From positions 62,001 to 126,000 of the forward strand of contig NZ_VNHM01000004.1 in assembly GCF_008124625.1 (NCBI RefSeq): a stretch of 64,000 bases of DNA, given 5' to 3'. The stretch comes from Desulfallas thermosapovorans DSM 6562 (GTDB taxonomy: Bacteria > Bacillota > Desulfotomaculia > Desulfotomaculales > Desulfallaceae). Under the pieces are notes generated by a model. The model made no database searches and was not told the origin of the DNA. It worked only from the letters and a program-made list of their open reading frames with translations. Below, one piece after another: positions 30,156-36,820 of the stretch (position 1 is its first letter; each line of letters begins with the position of its first letter). The position numbers and the translations under genes were made by a program.

Positions 30156-31841
30156 TCAAGTTAAATTACTTAACAGGATATTAAGCTGTGGCCCTGATCG
30201 CCTGAAAACAACGAAAAACGTGGTGCCACCGGTACCGGTATCCACTTTAATGGTTGCGTTGTGGCGCGCGGCGATACTGTAGCAAACCGCCAGGCCAAGC
30301 CCCGTCCCTTCCGCTTTGGTGGTAAAAAAAGGTGTACCAATTTTATCGAGCACCTCCGGGTTAATTCCGCAGCCCTGATCTTTTACTGCTAATATTACCT
30401 CATCATCTTTGCTGACAAATGTTTTTATGGTTAGTTTGCCTTTGGGCTCCATGGCGTCCAGCCCGTTGCGCACCAGATTCAGCAACAACTGCCGGATTTC
30501 CTTTTCATCAAGCAGCAGGTCAGGCACTTTCTGTAAATCAAGTTCTATGATTTTGTCCGCGTTGGTAGCATCGGCCGTTATCAGCGGGGTTATGGCCGCT
30601 ACAATATCAGTGAGGTTTTGCAGCTTATAATCAACGGGCCTGTCCTTGGCCAGGGAAAGATATTCCGTAATTATTGAGTTGGCCCGGTCCAGTTCCTGGA
30701 TCATTAAATAAAAATATTCCCTGTACTCCCGGCAGTTCTCCTTGCCGCTCAATAATTGTAAAAAACCACGCACCGTAGTCATGGGATTTCTTATCTCATG
30801 CCCTATGCCGGCGGCCATTTCGCCCACCAGGTTCAGCCGTTCCAGGTTGGCCATTTCCTTTTCCAACTGCTTTTTCTCGGTGACATCCTCGGCAAATTTT
30901 AAAATATGTGTAACCCGGCCACCGGAATCCCTGAGGGAAAAAAAGAAGGCATTTTCCCAGTAATATTTTCCACCGGCTTTTCTGCTGATTATTTCACCCT
31001 TCCAATTCCTACCCGTTTTGATTATCTCCGATAATTCATCTAAATTTCCGGTATGGTTCTCCATAAAGTTAAAAAAATTTTTACCCATGACATCTTTGGG
31101 CATATAGCCGGTGGTGCGGGTAAAACTGTCGTTGACATACTCTATTATGCCGCTGGTGTTTGCTATTACCACCATCACCGGGCTTTGCTCCACAGCACAG
31201 GATAATACCCTCAGTTGTTCTTCGGCCTTTTTTCTGGAAGTAATCTCTTCTTTCAGTGTTTGCAGGCTTCGGTGCAAATGCTTGCGGTGTTCCGCCTCCA
31301 TGCTGGTCAATCCCCCTACAAGCCAGCCCACCACATACATCATGCCGATAAAAAGCAAATTCGCTTCCATGGCCTGGTAAATGTTTGTGCTGCCAATAAA
31401 GAATTTGTTATAGAGCAACAATATCAAAGTGCAAAGGGTGGACGTGGCTAACCCGCCTGTTTTGCCGGTCAGTGAAGCGGTTACCAGAACGGGCAGCAGC
31501 AGGATAGTTTCGGTGTTATCGATGCTGTTATTTACAACCAGTAACGTGGTCACTGTGACCGTAAAGGGAAAGAATATGTAAGTCGCCTTGGTTAGAGAAA
31601 TAGTATTGATACCGTCCGTTAAAGAGCCGTTTCTGGTTTTTACAAGTACAATAAAGCACAGCCCAACCAGCCCGGCCATAATAAAGAAACGAACATTTAT
31701 AACAGGATATATTTGGTCCGGTATAAAAAATTTATTGCTGAGCACCAGTGAAGATATCATGATCAAAAGGCAAAGCATATGGGTGGTGATTAAATATTCC
31801 TGTACTTCATTTTCCCTTTGACGCAAATTGTCTGTTGTCAT
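30156..31841 (-). CDS. PAS-domain sensor histidine kinase, last gene of an agr-like operon
   Basis: 561 residues from ATG 31841 (AAAAAGG nine bases upstream; GTG 31850 is also in frame). About six membrane helices occupy residues 15-195 (ending YVVGWLVGG). A coiled linker (TLKEEITSRKKAEEQL) follows, then one PAS domain (AVEQSPVMVVIANTSGIIEY to FAEDVTEKKQLE), HisKA with GEMAAGIGHEIRNPMTTVRG (phospho-acceptor His), and HATPase_c (N box LLLNLVRNGLDAM, G1 VKDQGCGIN, G2 TTKAEGTGLGLAVC). This is the layout of sporulation-type (KinB/Spo0A phosphorelay) kinases rather than of AgrC, which has a GHKL domain. No response regulator is adjacent, so the target is unknown; Spo0F/Spo0A is one candidate (inference). 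Confidence 0.85.
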   Translation of the reverse strand: MTTDNLRQRENEVQEYLITTHMLCLLIMISSLVLSNKFFIPDQIYPVINVRFFIMAGLVGLCFIVLVKTRNGSLTDGINTISLTKATYIFFPFTVTVTTLLVVNNSIDNTETILLLPVLVTASLTGKTGGLATSTLCTLILLLYNKFFIGSTNIYQAMEANLLFIGMMYVVGWLVGGLTSMEAEHRKHLHRSLQTLKEEITSRKKAEEQLRVLSCAVEQSPVMVVIANTSGIIEYVNDSFTRTTGYMPKDVMGKNFFNFMENHTGNLDELSEIIKTGRNWKGEIISRKAGGKYYWENAFFFSLRDSGGRVTHILKFAEDVTEKKQLEKEMANLERLNLVGEMAAGIGHEIRNPMTTVRGFLQLLSGKENCREYREYFYLMIQELDRANSIITEYLSLAKDRPVDYKLQNLTDIVAAITPLITADATNADKIIELDLQKVPDLLLDEKEIRQLLLNLVRNGLDAMEPKGKLTIKTFVSKDDEVILAVKDQGCGINPEVLDKIGTPFFTTKAEGTGLGLAVCYSIAARHNATIKVDTGTGGTTFFVVFRRSGPQLNILLSNLT

Positions 31842-31936
31842 GGTCTTCACCCTTTTTCATAAAATAGGAAATAGGGGTGGAAATTACCACCCCAATGCAA
31901 TGGCGGAACGCGATAAACTAGCAAATACAGGCTAAT

Positions 31937-32074
31937 TTATTTTCTTAATGCTTCAGGCACTTCGGGCTGGTAGGCGGAAATCAGGCAGGCAGAGGCGGCG
32001 GCAGCGGTGACTTTGGCCAACAACAACAGTGCTGCAACGGCAAATACCCAAAGCCGGGACGTAATCTTTTTCAT
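31937..32074 (-). CDS. agrD: AgrD-like cyclic lactone autoinducer prepeptide
   Basis: A 45-residue peptide too short for most gene finders. The ATG at 32074 has AAGGAGGTG nine bases upstream, within the end of agrB. Layout: basic, amphipathic N-terminus (MKKITSRLWVFAVAALLLLA), an Ala-rich bridge, then the core SACLISAYQPEVPEALRK. A Cys followed by a short segment and a YQPE(V/M)P-x-x-LRK tail is the clostridial AgrD pattern, in which AgrB cuts after the ring and joins the Cys side chain to the new C-terminus. The ring probably spans Cys30 to about Tyr35. It lies four bases after the agrB stop. Confidence 0.88.
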   Translation of the reverse strand: MKKITSRLWVFAVAALLLLAKVTAAAASACLISAYQPEVPEALRK

Positions 32075-32078
32075 TTCA

Positions 32079-32729
32079 TTACACCTCCTTTGGTTTGGTT
32101 TTTAATGAAATACTGTCCACAAGCGACATTAACTTATGCCCCCAAGGGGTAAGCATAAAACTGCTCCAGAACAAAGTTAAGGCAATACACGGCTGGGCTG
32201 TTTCGGTATACGGCCATGGAGTATTTCTAAGCCATATCGCCATGACGGTGGCCAGCACAACAAATAAAACAGAGATCTTTTTCAGTTTTGCCCTGCGCAG
32301 CGGGGATATAATGGGGGCGGCGGGAGAATCCACGGGGGCCAGCAATAGCATGGCGTTTATCCCCACCCCAAAGGCTATGGCCGTAAGTATATCGACAAAC
32401 ATCTGTCCCAGGCCGCTAAAATATGCACCCAGCAGGGCCAAAAGGGGAAAAACGGCAATGGTGACGGTAGCACAGCGCCAGGGGGAATTGGAGTGGGCTC
32501 CCCCGGCGCTGTGCCTGAACAATATAGTGGTGGCCAGGCAGGCGATGGTGCCGGGCAGCACACCCAGCAATGCCCCCAGCAGGAGGGTGAAAGAAATATT
32601 CAAAAAATTTAATGCCAGCACCTCCAAAACATAGGCCAGGATGATTTCCTGCTCTGCTGTGAGGCGAGTTTTCCGGCTAAGATAACCCGCCCAGCGCTTG
32701 CTGAAGGATAGATAACTCATATTCTCCAC
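32079..32729 (-). CDS. agrB: AgrB-like accessory gene regulator protease
   Basis: 216 residues, an integral membrane cysteine protease that trims and cyclises the AgrD peptide. The catalytic pair is in FRHSAGGAHSNSPWRC: the conserved R-x-x-A-G-G-x-H with the active His, and the Cys eight residues on. Five to six hydrophobic helices surround it. It begins inside the end of the upstream membrane-protein gene (13-base overlap, GTG 32729 or ATG 32720), and its own end carries the ribosome binding site for agrD, so expression of all three is coupled. Confidence 0.9.
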   Translation of the reverse strand: MENMSYLSFSKRWAGYLSRKTRLTAEQEIILAYVLEVLALNFLNISFTLLLGALLGVLPGTIACLATTILFRHSAGGAHSNSPWRCATVTIAVFPLLALLGAYFSGLGQMFVDILTAIAFGVGINAMLLLAPVDSPAAPIISPLRRAKLKKISVLFVVLATVMAIWLRNTPWPYTETAQPCIALTLFWSSFMLTPWGHKLMSLVDSISLKTKPKEV

Positions 32730-33178
32730 ATTCCTTCCTGGGCTCTTCTATATTTTGCGGTAATAAAGGCAACAGCGATCAGAATAAAGCCCTGGGGTAA
32801 CCCGATTAACGTTCGCGTATGCTGATTGGACATTAAAAGGCTGGCTTCCGTATTTAGAAGTGTTCCGAATAATTCGTATACGGCTAATTCCAATAATCCC
32901 AGCAGAGCATAGGCAGCGAACACGACAATAAAGCTTGTGAATGGCGGCACCCTGGTAAACCTGGCGATGAACAGTGTGCTCAGCAATATTCCCGCCAAGG
33001 TGTGCAGCCCGAAGGTGACCGGCATATTTCTGATAACATAAATTACCATGGTTAATGCGCTCGCAAAAGCCAGGATCACCCCCCAGCGCAGTTTTACCCT
33101 GGCCAGAGCCAGGCTGCAGGCAACAACACCTGCAGTTTCGGGGATTCCCTGTGCAAAGAACAAAAGTGTCTGCAGCAT
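32717..33178 (-). CDS. Small polytopic membrane protein of the agr-like operon, paralogue 1
   Basis: 153 residues, about five hydrophobic helices. The start is ATG 33178 after GAGGTGTGAAG; GTG 33184 is also in frame. Landmarks are MLQTLLFFAQGIPETAGVVACSLALARV, IRNMPVTFGLHT, RVPPFTSF and GLPQGFILI, ending in MWRI. It is clearly related to the next gene. The pattern (helix, IR-x-(L/M)-P-x-x-FG-x-HT, R(V/L)P, GLP) resembles the membrane sensor half of AgrC/GHKL-type kinases in this group of bacteria, here without any kinase part. That resemblance is my reading and was not tested by search. It lies directly upstream of agrB. Confidence 0.7.
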   Translation of the reverse strand: MLQTLLFFAQGIPETAGVVACSLALARVKLRWGVILAFASALTMVIYVIRNMPVTFGLHTLAGILLSTLFIARFTRVPPFTSFIVVFAAYALLGLLELAVYELFGTLLNTEASLLMSNQHTRTLIGLPQGFILIAVAFITAKYRRAQEGMWRI

Positions 33179-33284
33179 CTTCACACCTCAATAAGCGGTA
33201 GTGTCAAAGGGACAACCAGTGCCTGGCGGCGGCGTAAACGCTAAATCCTAATCAGCTTATCTTATACCGGGCAATGAAGGCGGT

Positions 33285-33746
33285 TCATATTCTCCACATA
33301 TCATCCACCGGTTTCCTGTATTTTGAAATTAATATCGCACCTGCAATCAGCAATATGCCCTGGGGCAATCCTGTTAATTGCCATAAAGAATAAGCCGATA
33401 GCATGATGGTTATTTCATTGCTTAGCAGAGCTCGAAACAGTTCGCTGATGCGGGCCTCCACAAATAATAAAACAGCCACAGTGATAAATACCGCCATAAA
33501 GCTTATTGAAGGGGGAACTCTGGTGGCTTTGGAAATGAACACAGCGTAAATTAAGATAGCCACTACGGTATGCAAACCAAAGGTGACGGGTAAATTTCTT
33601 ATGATGTAAATAATCCCTGTAAAAACAACGGCGGTGGTAATAACTATTTTCCAGCGAATCTCCACCCTGACCAGAGCCAAAGTGCAGGCAAGCAGCCCCG
33701 TGCATTCAGGAATTCCCTGGGTAAAGAACAATAATGTCTGCAACAT
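33285..33746 (-). CDS. Small polytopic membrane protein of the agr-like operon, paralogue 2
   Basis: 153 residues from ATG 33746 (GAGGTGCGTA immediately upstream; the frame continues to 33851 but without a start signal). It shares with paralogue 1 the opening MLQTLLFFTQGIPECTGLLAC, IRNLPVTFGLHT, RVPPSISF, GLPQGILLI and the end MWRI. The two are tandem duplicates at roughly 45-50% identity by eye. This is the first gene of the operon. Possible roles are stand-alone receptors or partners for the peptide; unknown. Confidence 0.7.
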   Translation of the reverse strand: MLQTLLFFTQGIPECTGLLACTLALVRVEIRWKIVITTAVVFTGIIYIIRNLPVTFGLHTVVAILIYAVFISKATRVPPSISFMAVFITVAVLLFVEARISELFRALLSNEITIMLSAYSLWQLTGLPQGILLIAGAILISKYRKPVDDMWRI

Positions 33747-34081: not shown

Positions 34082-36820
34082 TTATTGCACCGGGAAATCA
34101 AAATACTTATCCGGGTAGGGTTCATCCTTTAATGTATAATGCCACCATTCCTCCGGGTAAGCCGCAAAACCGTGCTTTTCCATCAGGCCCTTAAGTAGTT
34201 GGCGGTTCTCCCTTTGCTCCTCTGTAATCAATTCGGTATCATGGTGGGAAATGGGGCCGAAAAAGTCAAAGGGACTGCCCATATCCAGTTCCTCTCCGTT
34301 ATCAAGCCTGATGATGGTCAGGTCGATGGTGCTGCCCCGGGAGTGACCGGATTTATGAGCAATGTATCCCAGGTTGAATAAGTTGCTTTTATCGATGTCA
34401 GGATAAAATTGACTTTTCATCTTGGTGTCTTTTACATCGGCGGCCCACCGGGCAAAATTATCAACCGCCCGCTGGGGCCGGTAAGCGTCGAATATTTTTA
34501 ATCCCAGACCCTGTTGATTTAATTCCTGCTGCACTTTTTTCAAAGCACTGGCCGCCGGTTCGGAGATTACGGCCCGGGGGGCCAGATAACCGTCCACCGG
34601 CCGCCCGGTGAAATTGTTCTCCCCAAAGTAACGGATATCCAACTCCACGTTGGGTATTACTTCATCCAGATAGACAAACCCCTCCGGTATAAAATGTTTT
34701 GTTTCAATATTAAAATCTTCCAGCAGCGCGTCAATACCGGCATCCCGGCCGCGGAATCTCTGGTAAAGCAACGCCGGGTGTTCCGAGGCCCCCCTGGCAA
34801 GGATATTATCCCTGAATGATGCAGCCGTGGCTTTGTTGAAGATGCCGTTCTTTTCAAAGGCAACAAAGGCGTCGGCGGCCAGGACTTCGGACCACAAATA
34901 ACTGTAGTACCCCGCAGCATATCCGCCGGCAAAAATATGAGAGAAGCTGTTGCTTACCAGGCACCCTTCCACAAGGGGCAGCAGTGCGGGCTCTTCACTG
35001 GCTTCCCTTTCAAATTGGCTTACCGGCACTTGCACCGGGGAAGTGATGGTGTGCCAGGCCAGATCAATATTTCCCAGGCGCACTTGCTGCAGCCTGTTAA
35101 AGGCAATATGGAACCTCTTTTGCTCCCGGATTTTTTCCACTAATGCCGCAGGTATTTTTTCTCCTGTTTTATAGTGCACCGCAAACATGTCCAGGAACTC
35201 TTTTTGGTAGACCCAGTTTTCCATAAGCTGCGAAGGCAATTCAATAAAATCCCAGTGGGCATAATAACTGGAGGTTGCAGCATAGGTAACATCCGCAAGC
35301 AGCATATGGAGCGCATGCCCGAACTCATGGAGTAATGTGGTTACTTCGTGCAATGTCAGCAATGACGGCTCGGTTTTGGTGGGTTTAGTAAAATTACATA
35401 CCACCATCACCTGAGGCCTTAAATTCTGTCCCTGGTACTTTTCCGGGGCGGCCAGCTGTGCGGTCCAGGCCCCGTCGGCCTTACCGGCCCGGGGAAAATA
35501 ATCCAGGTATAACACGCCCAAAAAGCTGTTGTCGGCATCAAAAACCTCATAGGCCGTTACTTCGGGATTGTAGACCGGTATGTCTTTATTAACCTTAAAT
35601 TTTAAACCATATAAACGCCCGGCCAGTTGGAAAACACCCTTCTGGACGTTCTCCAGGCGAAAATAGGGCCGGAGTTCTTCTTCGTTGAAGGATAATTTTT
35701 GGTCCTTTAGTTTGTTTTCATAATAACTCCAGTCGTAAGGCCGCAGCTCTGATTCCAACCCCAGCCCGGCGGCAAATTTCTGCAGCTTTTGAACCTCTTC
35801 TTTGGCCGCACCCTGGAGGGCATAATACAACTTGTTTTGAAAATCTTCCACCGTGCGGGGGTTTCGCGCCATGCGTTCTTCAAGCACATAGTGGGCATGG
35901 GTGGGGTAGCCCAGTAACTTGGCTGCCTGAAGTCTCAAGTTGGCTATTTCCACTACGATGGCACTGTTATCATTTTTACCGTTGCTGCCCAGGCCGCCGT
36001 AAGTTTTATACATCCGCTCCCTTAACCCGCGGTTATCGGCATAACTCATCACAGAAATATAAGTGGGGTAATCCAGGGTAAACACCCAACCCGTCATGTT
36101 CTGTGCCCGGGCGGTATCTGCCGCTGATTCCACCACAGCTTGGGGCAAGCCGGCTAGCTCGCGTTTATCGGTGACGTGTACATAACTGTTTTTGGTGTCC
36201 GCCAGCACGTTTTCCATGAACCTCATTTCCAGCTCCGCAAGGCGCCGGGAAATTTGCCGCATTCTTTCCTTTTCCCCATCCTCCAGTTCGGCACCGTTTC
36301 TGACGAATTGCCGGTAGGTATTCTCCAGCAGTGTTTTTTGTTCGGCGGTAAGCAGGTTGCGGTCACAATTTTCGTAAACATACTTTACTTTGGCGAAAAG
36401 GTTTTCGTTAAGGGTGATGTCATTGTAAAAATCGGCCAGGATGGGGGAAACCTCCGCGGCAACCTCCTGTAACTCCGGATTGGTGTCGGCTTCGTTCAAC
36501 TGAAATAAAATACTGGCGGTTCTTTTCAGTAAACGCCCGCTTTTCTCCAGTGCCTCGATGGTGTTGGCAAAGGTAGGCGTTTCGGGGTTGTTAATAATGT
36601 TCTCAATTTCTGCCCGGCCCTGTTTTATGGATTCCTCAATGGCCGGCATAAAATGCCCGGTTTTAATTTGGTCAAAGGGCGGTGTTTGATGGGGGGTATT
36701 GAATGGTCCCAGTAATGGATTTACGGCACCCGTCGCTCCATGGGCTGCGGGTATGGTTATGGCCAGCATGTAGATAAAGGCCAGTATAAAAAGCCATAAC
36801 CGGCTCTTATTGTTAAACAC
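34082..36820 (-). CDS. Exported M3 metallopeptidase fused to a VanX-type D-Ala-D-Ala dipeptidase
   Basis: 912 residues. Residues 1-29 are a Sec signal peptide (KSRLWLFILAFIYMLAITIPAAHG). Residues about 35-705 are a full M3 oligopeptidase, with LLHEFGHALHMLL near residue 498 supplying the HExxH zinc site and a YAHWDFIELPSQLMENW block after it. Residues about 713-912 are a complete VanX-like domain: DAYRPQRAV (the conserved Arg), SGHSRGSTIDLT (SxHxxGxxxD zinc ligands) and PEEWWHYTL (catalytic Glu and third ligand His). VanX hydrolyses D-Ala-D-Ala in the cytoplasm of vancomycin-resistant bacteria; an exported fusion would instead attack peptides and D-Ala-containing dipeptides outside. The start is GTG after AGGAGG. 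No van resistance genes are adjacent. Confidence 0.88.
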   Translation of the reverse strand: MFNNKSRLWLFILAFIYMLAITIPAAHGATGAVNPLLGPFNTPHQTPPFDQIKTGHFMPAIEESIKQGRAEIENIINNPETPTFANTIEALEKSGRLLKRTASILFQLNEADTNPELQEVAAEVSPILADFYNDITLNENLFAKVKYVYENCDRNLLTAEQKTLLENTYRQFVRNGAELEDGEKERMRQISRRLAELEMRFMENVLADTKNSYVHVTDKRELAGLPQAVVESAADTARAQNMTGWVFTLDYPTYISVMSYADNRGLRERMYKTYGGLGSNGKNDNSAIVVEIANLRLQAAKLLGYPTHAHYVLEERMARNPRTVEDFQNKLYYALQGAAKEEVQKLQKFAAGLGLESELRPYDWSYYENKLKDQKLSFNEEELRPYFRLENVQKGVFQLAGRLYGLKFKVNKDIPVYNPEVTAYEVFDADNSFLGVLYLDYFPRAGKADGAWTAQLAAPEKYQGQNLRPQVMVVCNFTKPTKTEPSLLTLHEVTTLLHEFGHALHMLLADVTYAATSSYYAHWDFIELPSQLMENWVYQKEFLDMFAVHYKTGEKIPAALVEKIREQKRFHIAFNRLQQVRLGNIDLAWHTITSPVQVPVSQFEREASEEPALLPLVEGCLVSNSFSHIFAGGYAAGYYSYLWSEVLAADAFVAFEKNGIFNKATAASFRDNILARGASEHPALLYQRFRGRDAGIDALLEDFNIETKHFIPEGFVYLDEVIPNVELDIRYFGENNFTGRPVDGYLAPRAVISEPAASALKKVQQELNQQGLGLKIFDAYRPQRAVDNFARWAADVKDTKMKSQFYPDIDKSNLFNLGYIAHKSGHSRGSTIDLTIIRLDNGEELDMGSPFDFFGPISHHDTELITEEQRENRQLLKGLMEKHGFAAYPEEWWHYTLKDEPYPDKYFDFPVQ

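Follow-up and report, generated by a model that had tools for sequence, protein, structure and literature searches.

An agr-type operon with an apparently split receptor and a phosphorelay-type kinase in Desulfallas thermosapovorans

The window considered here, a stretch of 64,000 nucleotides (nt) from Desulfallas thermosapovorans DSM 6562 (contig NZ_VNHM01000004.1, positions 62,001 to 126,000), belongs to a spore-forming sulfate reducer related to Desulfoscipio, Desulfotruncus and Sporotomaculum. On its minus strand (33746-30156) lies a five-gene operon encoding two paralogous membrane proteins, P1 and P2 (P when taken together), the peptidase AgrB, the peptide precursor AgrD and an orphan histidine kinase, in that order (Table 1). 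The operon appears to be a variant of agr signalling with a split receptor, in which relatives replace the kinase by an enzyme of cyclic di-guanosine monophosphate (c-di-GMP) turnover.

Gene order, spacing and predicted peptide

The gene content and order proposed in the initial annotation, two five-helix paralogues, AgrB, AgrD and a six-helix PAS-HisKA kinase, were confirmed by open reading frames and domain models. A search for conservation found the five-gene order retained in eight further genomes and hence far beyond chance. The kinase carries PAS, HisKA and HATPase_c domains, and neither the window nor the loci of window-type relatives showed a response-regulator domain, in agreement with the earlier statement that the operon has neither a GHKL AgrC nor a response regulator. 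As a one-piece GHKL AgrC and a LytTR-type AgrA are both absent from it, the operon falls outside canonical agrBDCA. Its place in agr peptide biosynthesis is given by AgrB, which matches PF04647 with 126 bits (1.1e-36, cut-off 23) and has the His/Cys pair of the catalytic motif, and by AgrD, which matches TIGR04223 with 32.4 bits (7.5e-08, cut-off 19). A sequence search of the PDB with AgrB gave no match.

The genes were initially described as translationally coupled throughout, which looks correct for P2-agrB-agrD only: P2 and agrB overlap by ATGA at 32720-32717 and agrB and agrD are 4 nt apart, but gaps of 100 nt and 86 nt separate P1 from P2 and agrD from the kinase gene. The latter gap contains a hairpin that is kept in eight of the nine window-type operons (it is missing in L040) with variable flanks, and this is its sole exact copy in the genome. 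It may act as an attenuator, a processing site or an operator of the kinase gene.

Among the family's 89 non-redundant AgrDs, 79 have the spacing Cys-x4-aromatic (or similar)-x-Pro, and several of the others have Ser instead of Cys. In the Listeria precursor, Tyr-Glu-Pro follows the ring. The proven Listeria peptide is the five-residue ring CFMFV, and the agr ring of Clostridium acetobutylicum has six residues (PMC4916163). On the basis of the conserved spacing and the Listeria analogy, the window peptide is probably a five-residue thiolactone ring, C-L-I-S-A, with Tyr as the first residue of the discarded tail, rather than the six-residue C-L-I-S-A-Y put forward initially. A six-residue ring like that of C. 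acetobutylicum is kept as an alternative.

Table 1. Features of the operon and related loci (positions in the window unless a locus is named)
Feature	Position	Strand	Description
P1	33285..33746	-	153 amino acids (aa); five-helix membrane protein, putative detached AgrC-type sensor domain, copy 1; below every Pfam cut-off
P2	32717..33184	-	155 aa; P1 paralogue; five-helix AlphaFold model
AgrB	32079..32729	-	Processing and cyclising membrane peptidase; PF04647; catalytic pair GGAH-x6-C; likely start ATG 32720
AgrD precursor	31937..32074	-	TIGR04223; predicted ring C-L-I-S-A, then tail YQPEVPEALRK
Hairpin	31874..31893	-	GGGGTGG-TAATTT-CCACCCC, in the agrD-kinase gap
Orphan histidine kinase	30156..31850	-	Nmod (six transmembrane helices), PAS, HisKA, HATPase_c; TTGFQL; alternative start ATG 31841
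Nmod	31206..31850	-	N-terminal kinase module, common to GGDEF-HD-GYP proteins of related agrBD operons
Peptidase_M3/M15 protein	34082..36820	-	912 aa; Peptidase_M3 joined to a Peptidase_M15 (D-Ala-D-Ala dipeptidase) domain
Nmod kinase loci without agrBD	L136:3544-5979 (G000:C4, this genome) and L142		Truncated P

Sensor domain, kinase module and exchanged outputs

P1 and P2 share 51% identity, neither reaches the cut-off of any Pfam or NCBIfam family, and the structure of P2 was predicted with five helices at a mean local confidence (pLDDT) of 93.9. P occurs in 153 of 399 sampled genomes of the phylum, representing 112 of 265 genera. In searches with phmmer and a 26-sequence profile (A1), homologues of P form the N-terminal 150 residues of proteins of 445-477 aa with SPOB_a and HATPase_c_5 domains, that is, AgrC-type GHKL kinases, whose genes adjoin those of AgrB and/or LytTR regulators (for example L034-L038, at 445-457 aa); 12 such fusions were present in the fetched loci. 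Elsewhere P is a separate gene immediately before a GHKL kinase of 276-300 aa with two transmembrane (TM) helices, with AgrB or LytTR nearby (L060, L062, L064, L085, L094, L096, L097, L100, L101 and L105). Since P occurs either as the N-terminus of GHKL kinases or split off before truncated ones, it most probably represents the AgrC sensor half made as a separate protein, and the initial suggestion that the paralogues are detached sensor domains thereby gained support. G59, H61 and E99 are invariant in stand-alone and fused P. Hydropathy and positive charges suggest a cytoplasmic C-terminus, and relative to the fused forms the split would lie behind TM5, within a cytoplasmic loop. Descent of P1 and P2 from a single tandem duplication was considered and could not be established, as the window's upstream copy and those of L040 and L045 group together at 86/87 only and the P pairs of L042 and L046 appear separate.

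The first 200 residues of the kinase, referred to as Nmod, gave a model of some six helices whose pLDDT was a modest 71, and recur in a protein encoded by another operon of this genome (L033:6740-9680, G000:C8), which reads P-agrB-agrD-Nmod-GGDEF-HD-GYP and has intact GGDEF and HD-GYP motifs. Against PDB folds the Nmod model matched only ImcA of Pseudomonas aeruginosa (8wcn; Foldseek probability 0.98, E 0.079), hinting at a MASE-like origin as far as a modest-confidence model allows. Nmod matches occur in 69 of 399 sampled genomes of the phylum, some of the weakest being unrelated; most of the weak matches L182-L191 were excluded, having been judged to be multi-TM kinases and GGDEF proteins with no relation to Nmod. 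P, AgrB or AgrD is encoded directly upstream of 63 of the 69 distinct strong Nmod genes, and the outputs behind these 69 modules are GGDEF (50, mostly with HD-GYP), HisKA (15) and hybrid HisKA-receiver (4). By a simple pattern, the GG(D/E)EF and HD-GYP motifs were seen in many of the Nmod-GGDEF proteins, while for a good part one or both were not seen, a count in which many rows are clipped by locus ends. No single-chain fusion of P with Nmod was present in the fetched loci.

In a maximum-likelihood tree of 89 Nmods, the window kinase falls in a clade of nine HisKA proteins (support 100/100), itself nested in a clade with 13 GGDEF proteins (98/94). Well-supported branches of the tree require the GGDEF label to have changed no fewer than seven times, which argues that the output has repeatedly been exchanged behind a stable front end of P, agrBD and Nmod. 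The window-type clade never has the kinase without P and agrBD; a kinase elsewhere without agrBD, named at the outset as evidence against the proposed system, was seen within a distant sister clade in two genomes, this one included, where a Nmod-PAS-HisKA kinase accompanies a truncated P (Table 1, last row) in what look like decayed or solo receptor loci.

Some loci of the family combine or alter these elements further. L141 (G091:C68) holds in one gene row a Nmod-HisKA kinase (TTGFQV), P, agrB, agrD and a Nmod-GGDEF-HD-GYP protein, so that both outputs are adjacent. In L168, L169, L171 and L174, Nmod is joined to hybrid HisKA-receiver kinases as a third kind of output, and the AgrDs of L168 and L174 have Ser for Cys, raising the question of a lactone instead of a thiolactone.

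Kinase target, receptor and alternative explanations

A Spo0F-Spo0B-Spo0A phosphorelay has been demonstrated in Desulfotomaculum acetoxidans (Davidson et al. 2018, PMC6136694), and that paper lists specificity residues TAGFQL for KinA and TTGFQL for Dtox_1918, a kinase that phosphorylates Spo0F in vitro. At the corresponding positions the window kinase has TTGFQL, identical to Dtox_1918, and its eight close relatives have TTGFQL (six) or TTGFQI (two). Besides the window kinase, five HisKA kinases in this genome carry an xxGFQL signature; none of these six lies beside a receiver gene, and the kinases that do adjoin receiver genes have other signatures. Spo0F (L066:3655-4008) is encoded between pyrG and fba on the window's own contig, the Spo0B gene adjoins obg and rplU, and a Spo0A gene is present. 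The kinase thus has the sequence features of a phosphorelay kinase, being an orphan of PAS-HisKA type with TTGFQL in a genome that encodes Spo0F, Spo0B and Spo0A. No cognate response regulator was found for it; the initial annotation had named such a find as one that would explain the pathway conventionally. The residues shared with Dtox_1918, the complete Spo0F/Spo0B/Spo0A set and the absence of a receiver from the operon make the phosphorelay the most likely target. The initial comparison with KinB-type kinases agrees with the multi-TM layout but not with the PAS domain, which Table 1 of PMC6136694 does not give for KinB.

Gene content and order, the homology of P to AgrC-type sensors, Nmod with its exchanged outputs, the specificity residues and the phosphorelay genes form the sequence basis of the explanation favoured here with somewhat better than even confidence, namely an agr-type quorum-sensing operon with a split receptor of P and Nmod that feeds the Spo0F phosphorelay. 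AgrB would trim and cyclise AgrD to a five-residue thiolactone, probably C-L-I-S-A, and the exported peptide would be sensed in the membrane jointly by P, present here in two copies, and the kinase's 6-TM module. Sensing by P and Nmod would gate the PAS-HisKA kinase, which would then phosphorylate Spo0F, from which the phosphoryl group would pass to Spo0B and Spo0A of the sporulation phosphorelay. Peptide structure, the P-Nmod complex, ligand binding, the sign of the effect and phosphotransfer are all conditional elements of this scheme. Elsewhere, including the second operon of this genome, the same front end of P, agrBD and Nmod would drive GGDEF-HD-GYP enzymes. The initial proposal that the peptide may feed the sporulation phosphorelay is hence probable for this operon in view of TTGFQL and the complete Spo0F/Spo0B/Spo0A set, but too narrow for the family, in which c-di-GMP turnover is the output seen most often; the system is one member of a broad family and not a sporulation device as such. 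A more general proposal, which we hold in even balance, is a widespread agr class in which the AgrC sensor domain acts in trans as a stand-alone subunit, plugging into a MASE-like 6-TM module whose outputs can be exchanged; a single cyclic peptide front end would then directly control either the phosphorelay or c-di-GMP turnover, without a two-component regulator of its own.

Which protein senses the peptide was approached by partial Mantel tests of AgrD core distance against the distances of P, Nmod and AgrB, which are exploratory, weak and subset-dependent. Over all 70 operons, the partial correlation was 0.154 for Nmod (0 of 500 permutations), 0.062 for AgrB (23/500) and 0.030 for P. When the divergent agrB-agrD-P-kinase layout was dropped, a subset picked after the first Mantel result, P rose to 0.105 (4/500), Nmod was retained at 0.108 (3/500) and AgrB showed none. 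These results fit a P-Nmod receptor without proving it. Several points weigh against it all the same: P is not singled out as the ligand binder, the full set of 70 operons favours Nmod alone, and Nmod could sense the peptide by itself. The partnership of P and kinase is a putative one. The AgrC likeness of P derives from comparison with P-GHKL kinases beside AgrB or LytTR, and no solved structure resembling P was found by a PDB fold search (no E <1) or a PDB sequence search. TTGFQL is also present in two further orphan kinases of this genome and so marks a class rather than a proven partner.

It is conceivable, if unlikely, that Nmod alone is the peptide receptor and P an accessory that serves, for instance, in folding, in export of the peptide or in desensitisation of an immunity-like kind, which would agree with the correlation held by Nmod and not P over the 70 operons and with the constant company that Nmod keeps with its output; yet P fused to, or encoded just before, GHKL kinases that have no Nmod argues that P belongs to the receptor, its independent signal returns once the divergent layout is left out, and it is retained in nearly all operons. 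A split receptor whose kinase serves one or more other receivers instead of the phosphorelay, such as a second Spo0F-like regulator (L073:3253-3672), is a somewhat improbable but appreciable alternative. Orphan kinases may have unlinked partners, the genome has 23 receiver domains and this second stand-alone Spo0F-like one, and c-di-GMP enzymes behind the same front end imply that sporulation is no fixed output; set against this, the TTGFQL of the window kinase equals that of Dtox_1918, a kinase tested with Spo0F (PMC6136694), and differs from the kinases beside receivers in this genome.

The agrBD genes can sit apart from agrAC in other clostridia, and a conventional AgrC/AgrA pair elsewhere in the genome, with P and the kinase as chance neighbours, would explain the operon on that model. 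Such an arrangement is very improbable here, because the only LytTR regulator genome-wide lies on another contig, the only SPOB_a (AgrC-type) matches are Spo0B and one sensor kinase that has a partner regulator already, and the order P-agrB-agrD-Nmod recurs across many genera.

Around the operon, the Peptidase_M3/M15 protein is encoded directly upstream, with an apparent terminator in between. Rfam models gave only two sub-threshold microRNA-model matches on the locus, both at one spot outside the operon, and a promoter scan found sites to be rarer than in shuffled sequence, so that its sites were set aside.

Comparison with known systems

The search for precedents covered a set of open-access papers, in which agrBD operons with split receptors or c-di-GMP outputs were not found described. 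MASE-type diguanylate cyclases such as ImcA of P. aeruginosa may resemble Nmod in fold, and the Nmod of the sister operons carries GGDEF-HD-GYP; we know of no agr peptide system for these cyclases. In the sister operons a cyclic peptide, once secreted, would act directly on c-di-GMP, and natural fusion, splitting and output exchange offer a handle on the coupling of AgrC-type sensors to kinases.

With the orphan sporulation kinases (KinA-KinE and Dtox_1918) the window kinase shares the orphan state and PAS-HisKA architecture, as well as TTGFQL with Dtox_1918, but it differs from them in lying inside an agrBD operon and in having a putative membrane partner of its own, a kind of partner that the available part of PMC6136694 reports for none of the verified kinases.

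To our knowledge, a P-Nmod receptor has not been described in clostridial agr systems. These systems (for example C. difficile Agr1 and C. acetobutylicum agr) are alike in that AgrBD affects sporulation or is a suspected input to it, the route from C. difficile AgrD1 to sporulation being unknown (PMC11210211), and the ring of C. acetobutylicum has six residues, in contrast to the five probable here. An operon with its own phosphorelay-type kinase makes a link from agr to sporulation without linked AgrC/AgrA directly testable.

The initial impression that this arrangement differs from the agr of staphylococci and clostridia is supported. Staphylococcal agrBDCA likewise has AgrB and AgrD of these families, a precursor of a cyclic peptide in which the ring spacing is Cys-x4, and a membrane receptor that links a polytopic sensor domain to a kinase. 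In the window operon, by contrast, the sensor domain is a separate protein that occurs twice, the kinase is of HisKA type with a PAS domain and a 6-TM module of its own instead of GHKL, and the output, with no LytTR regulator, is probably a phosphorelay.

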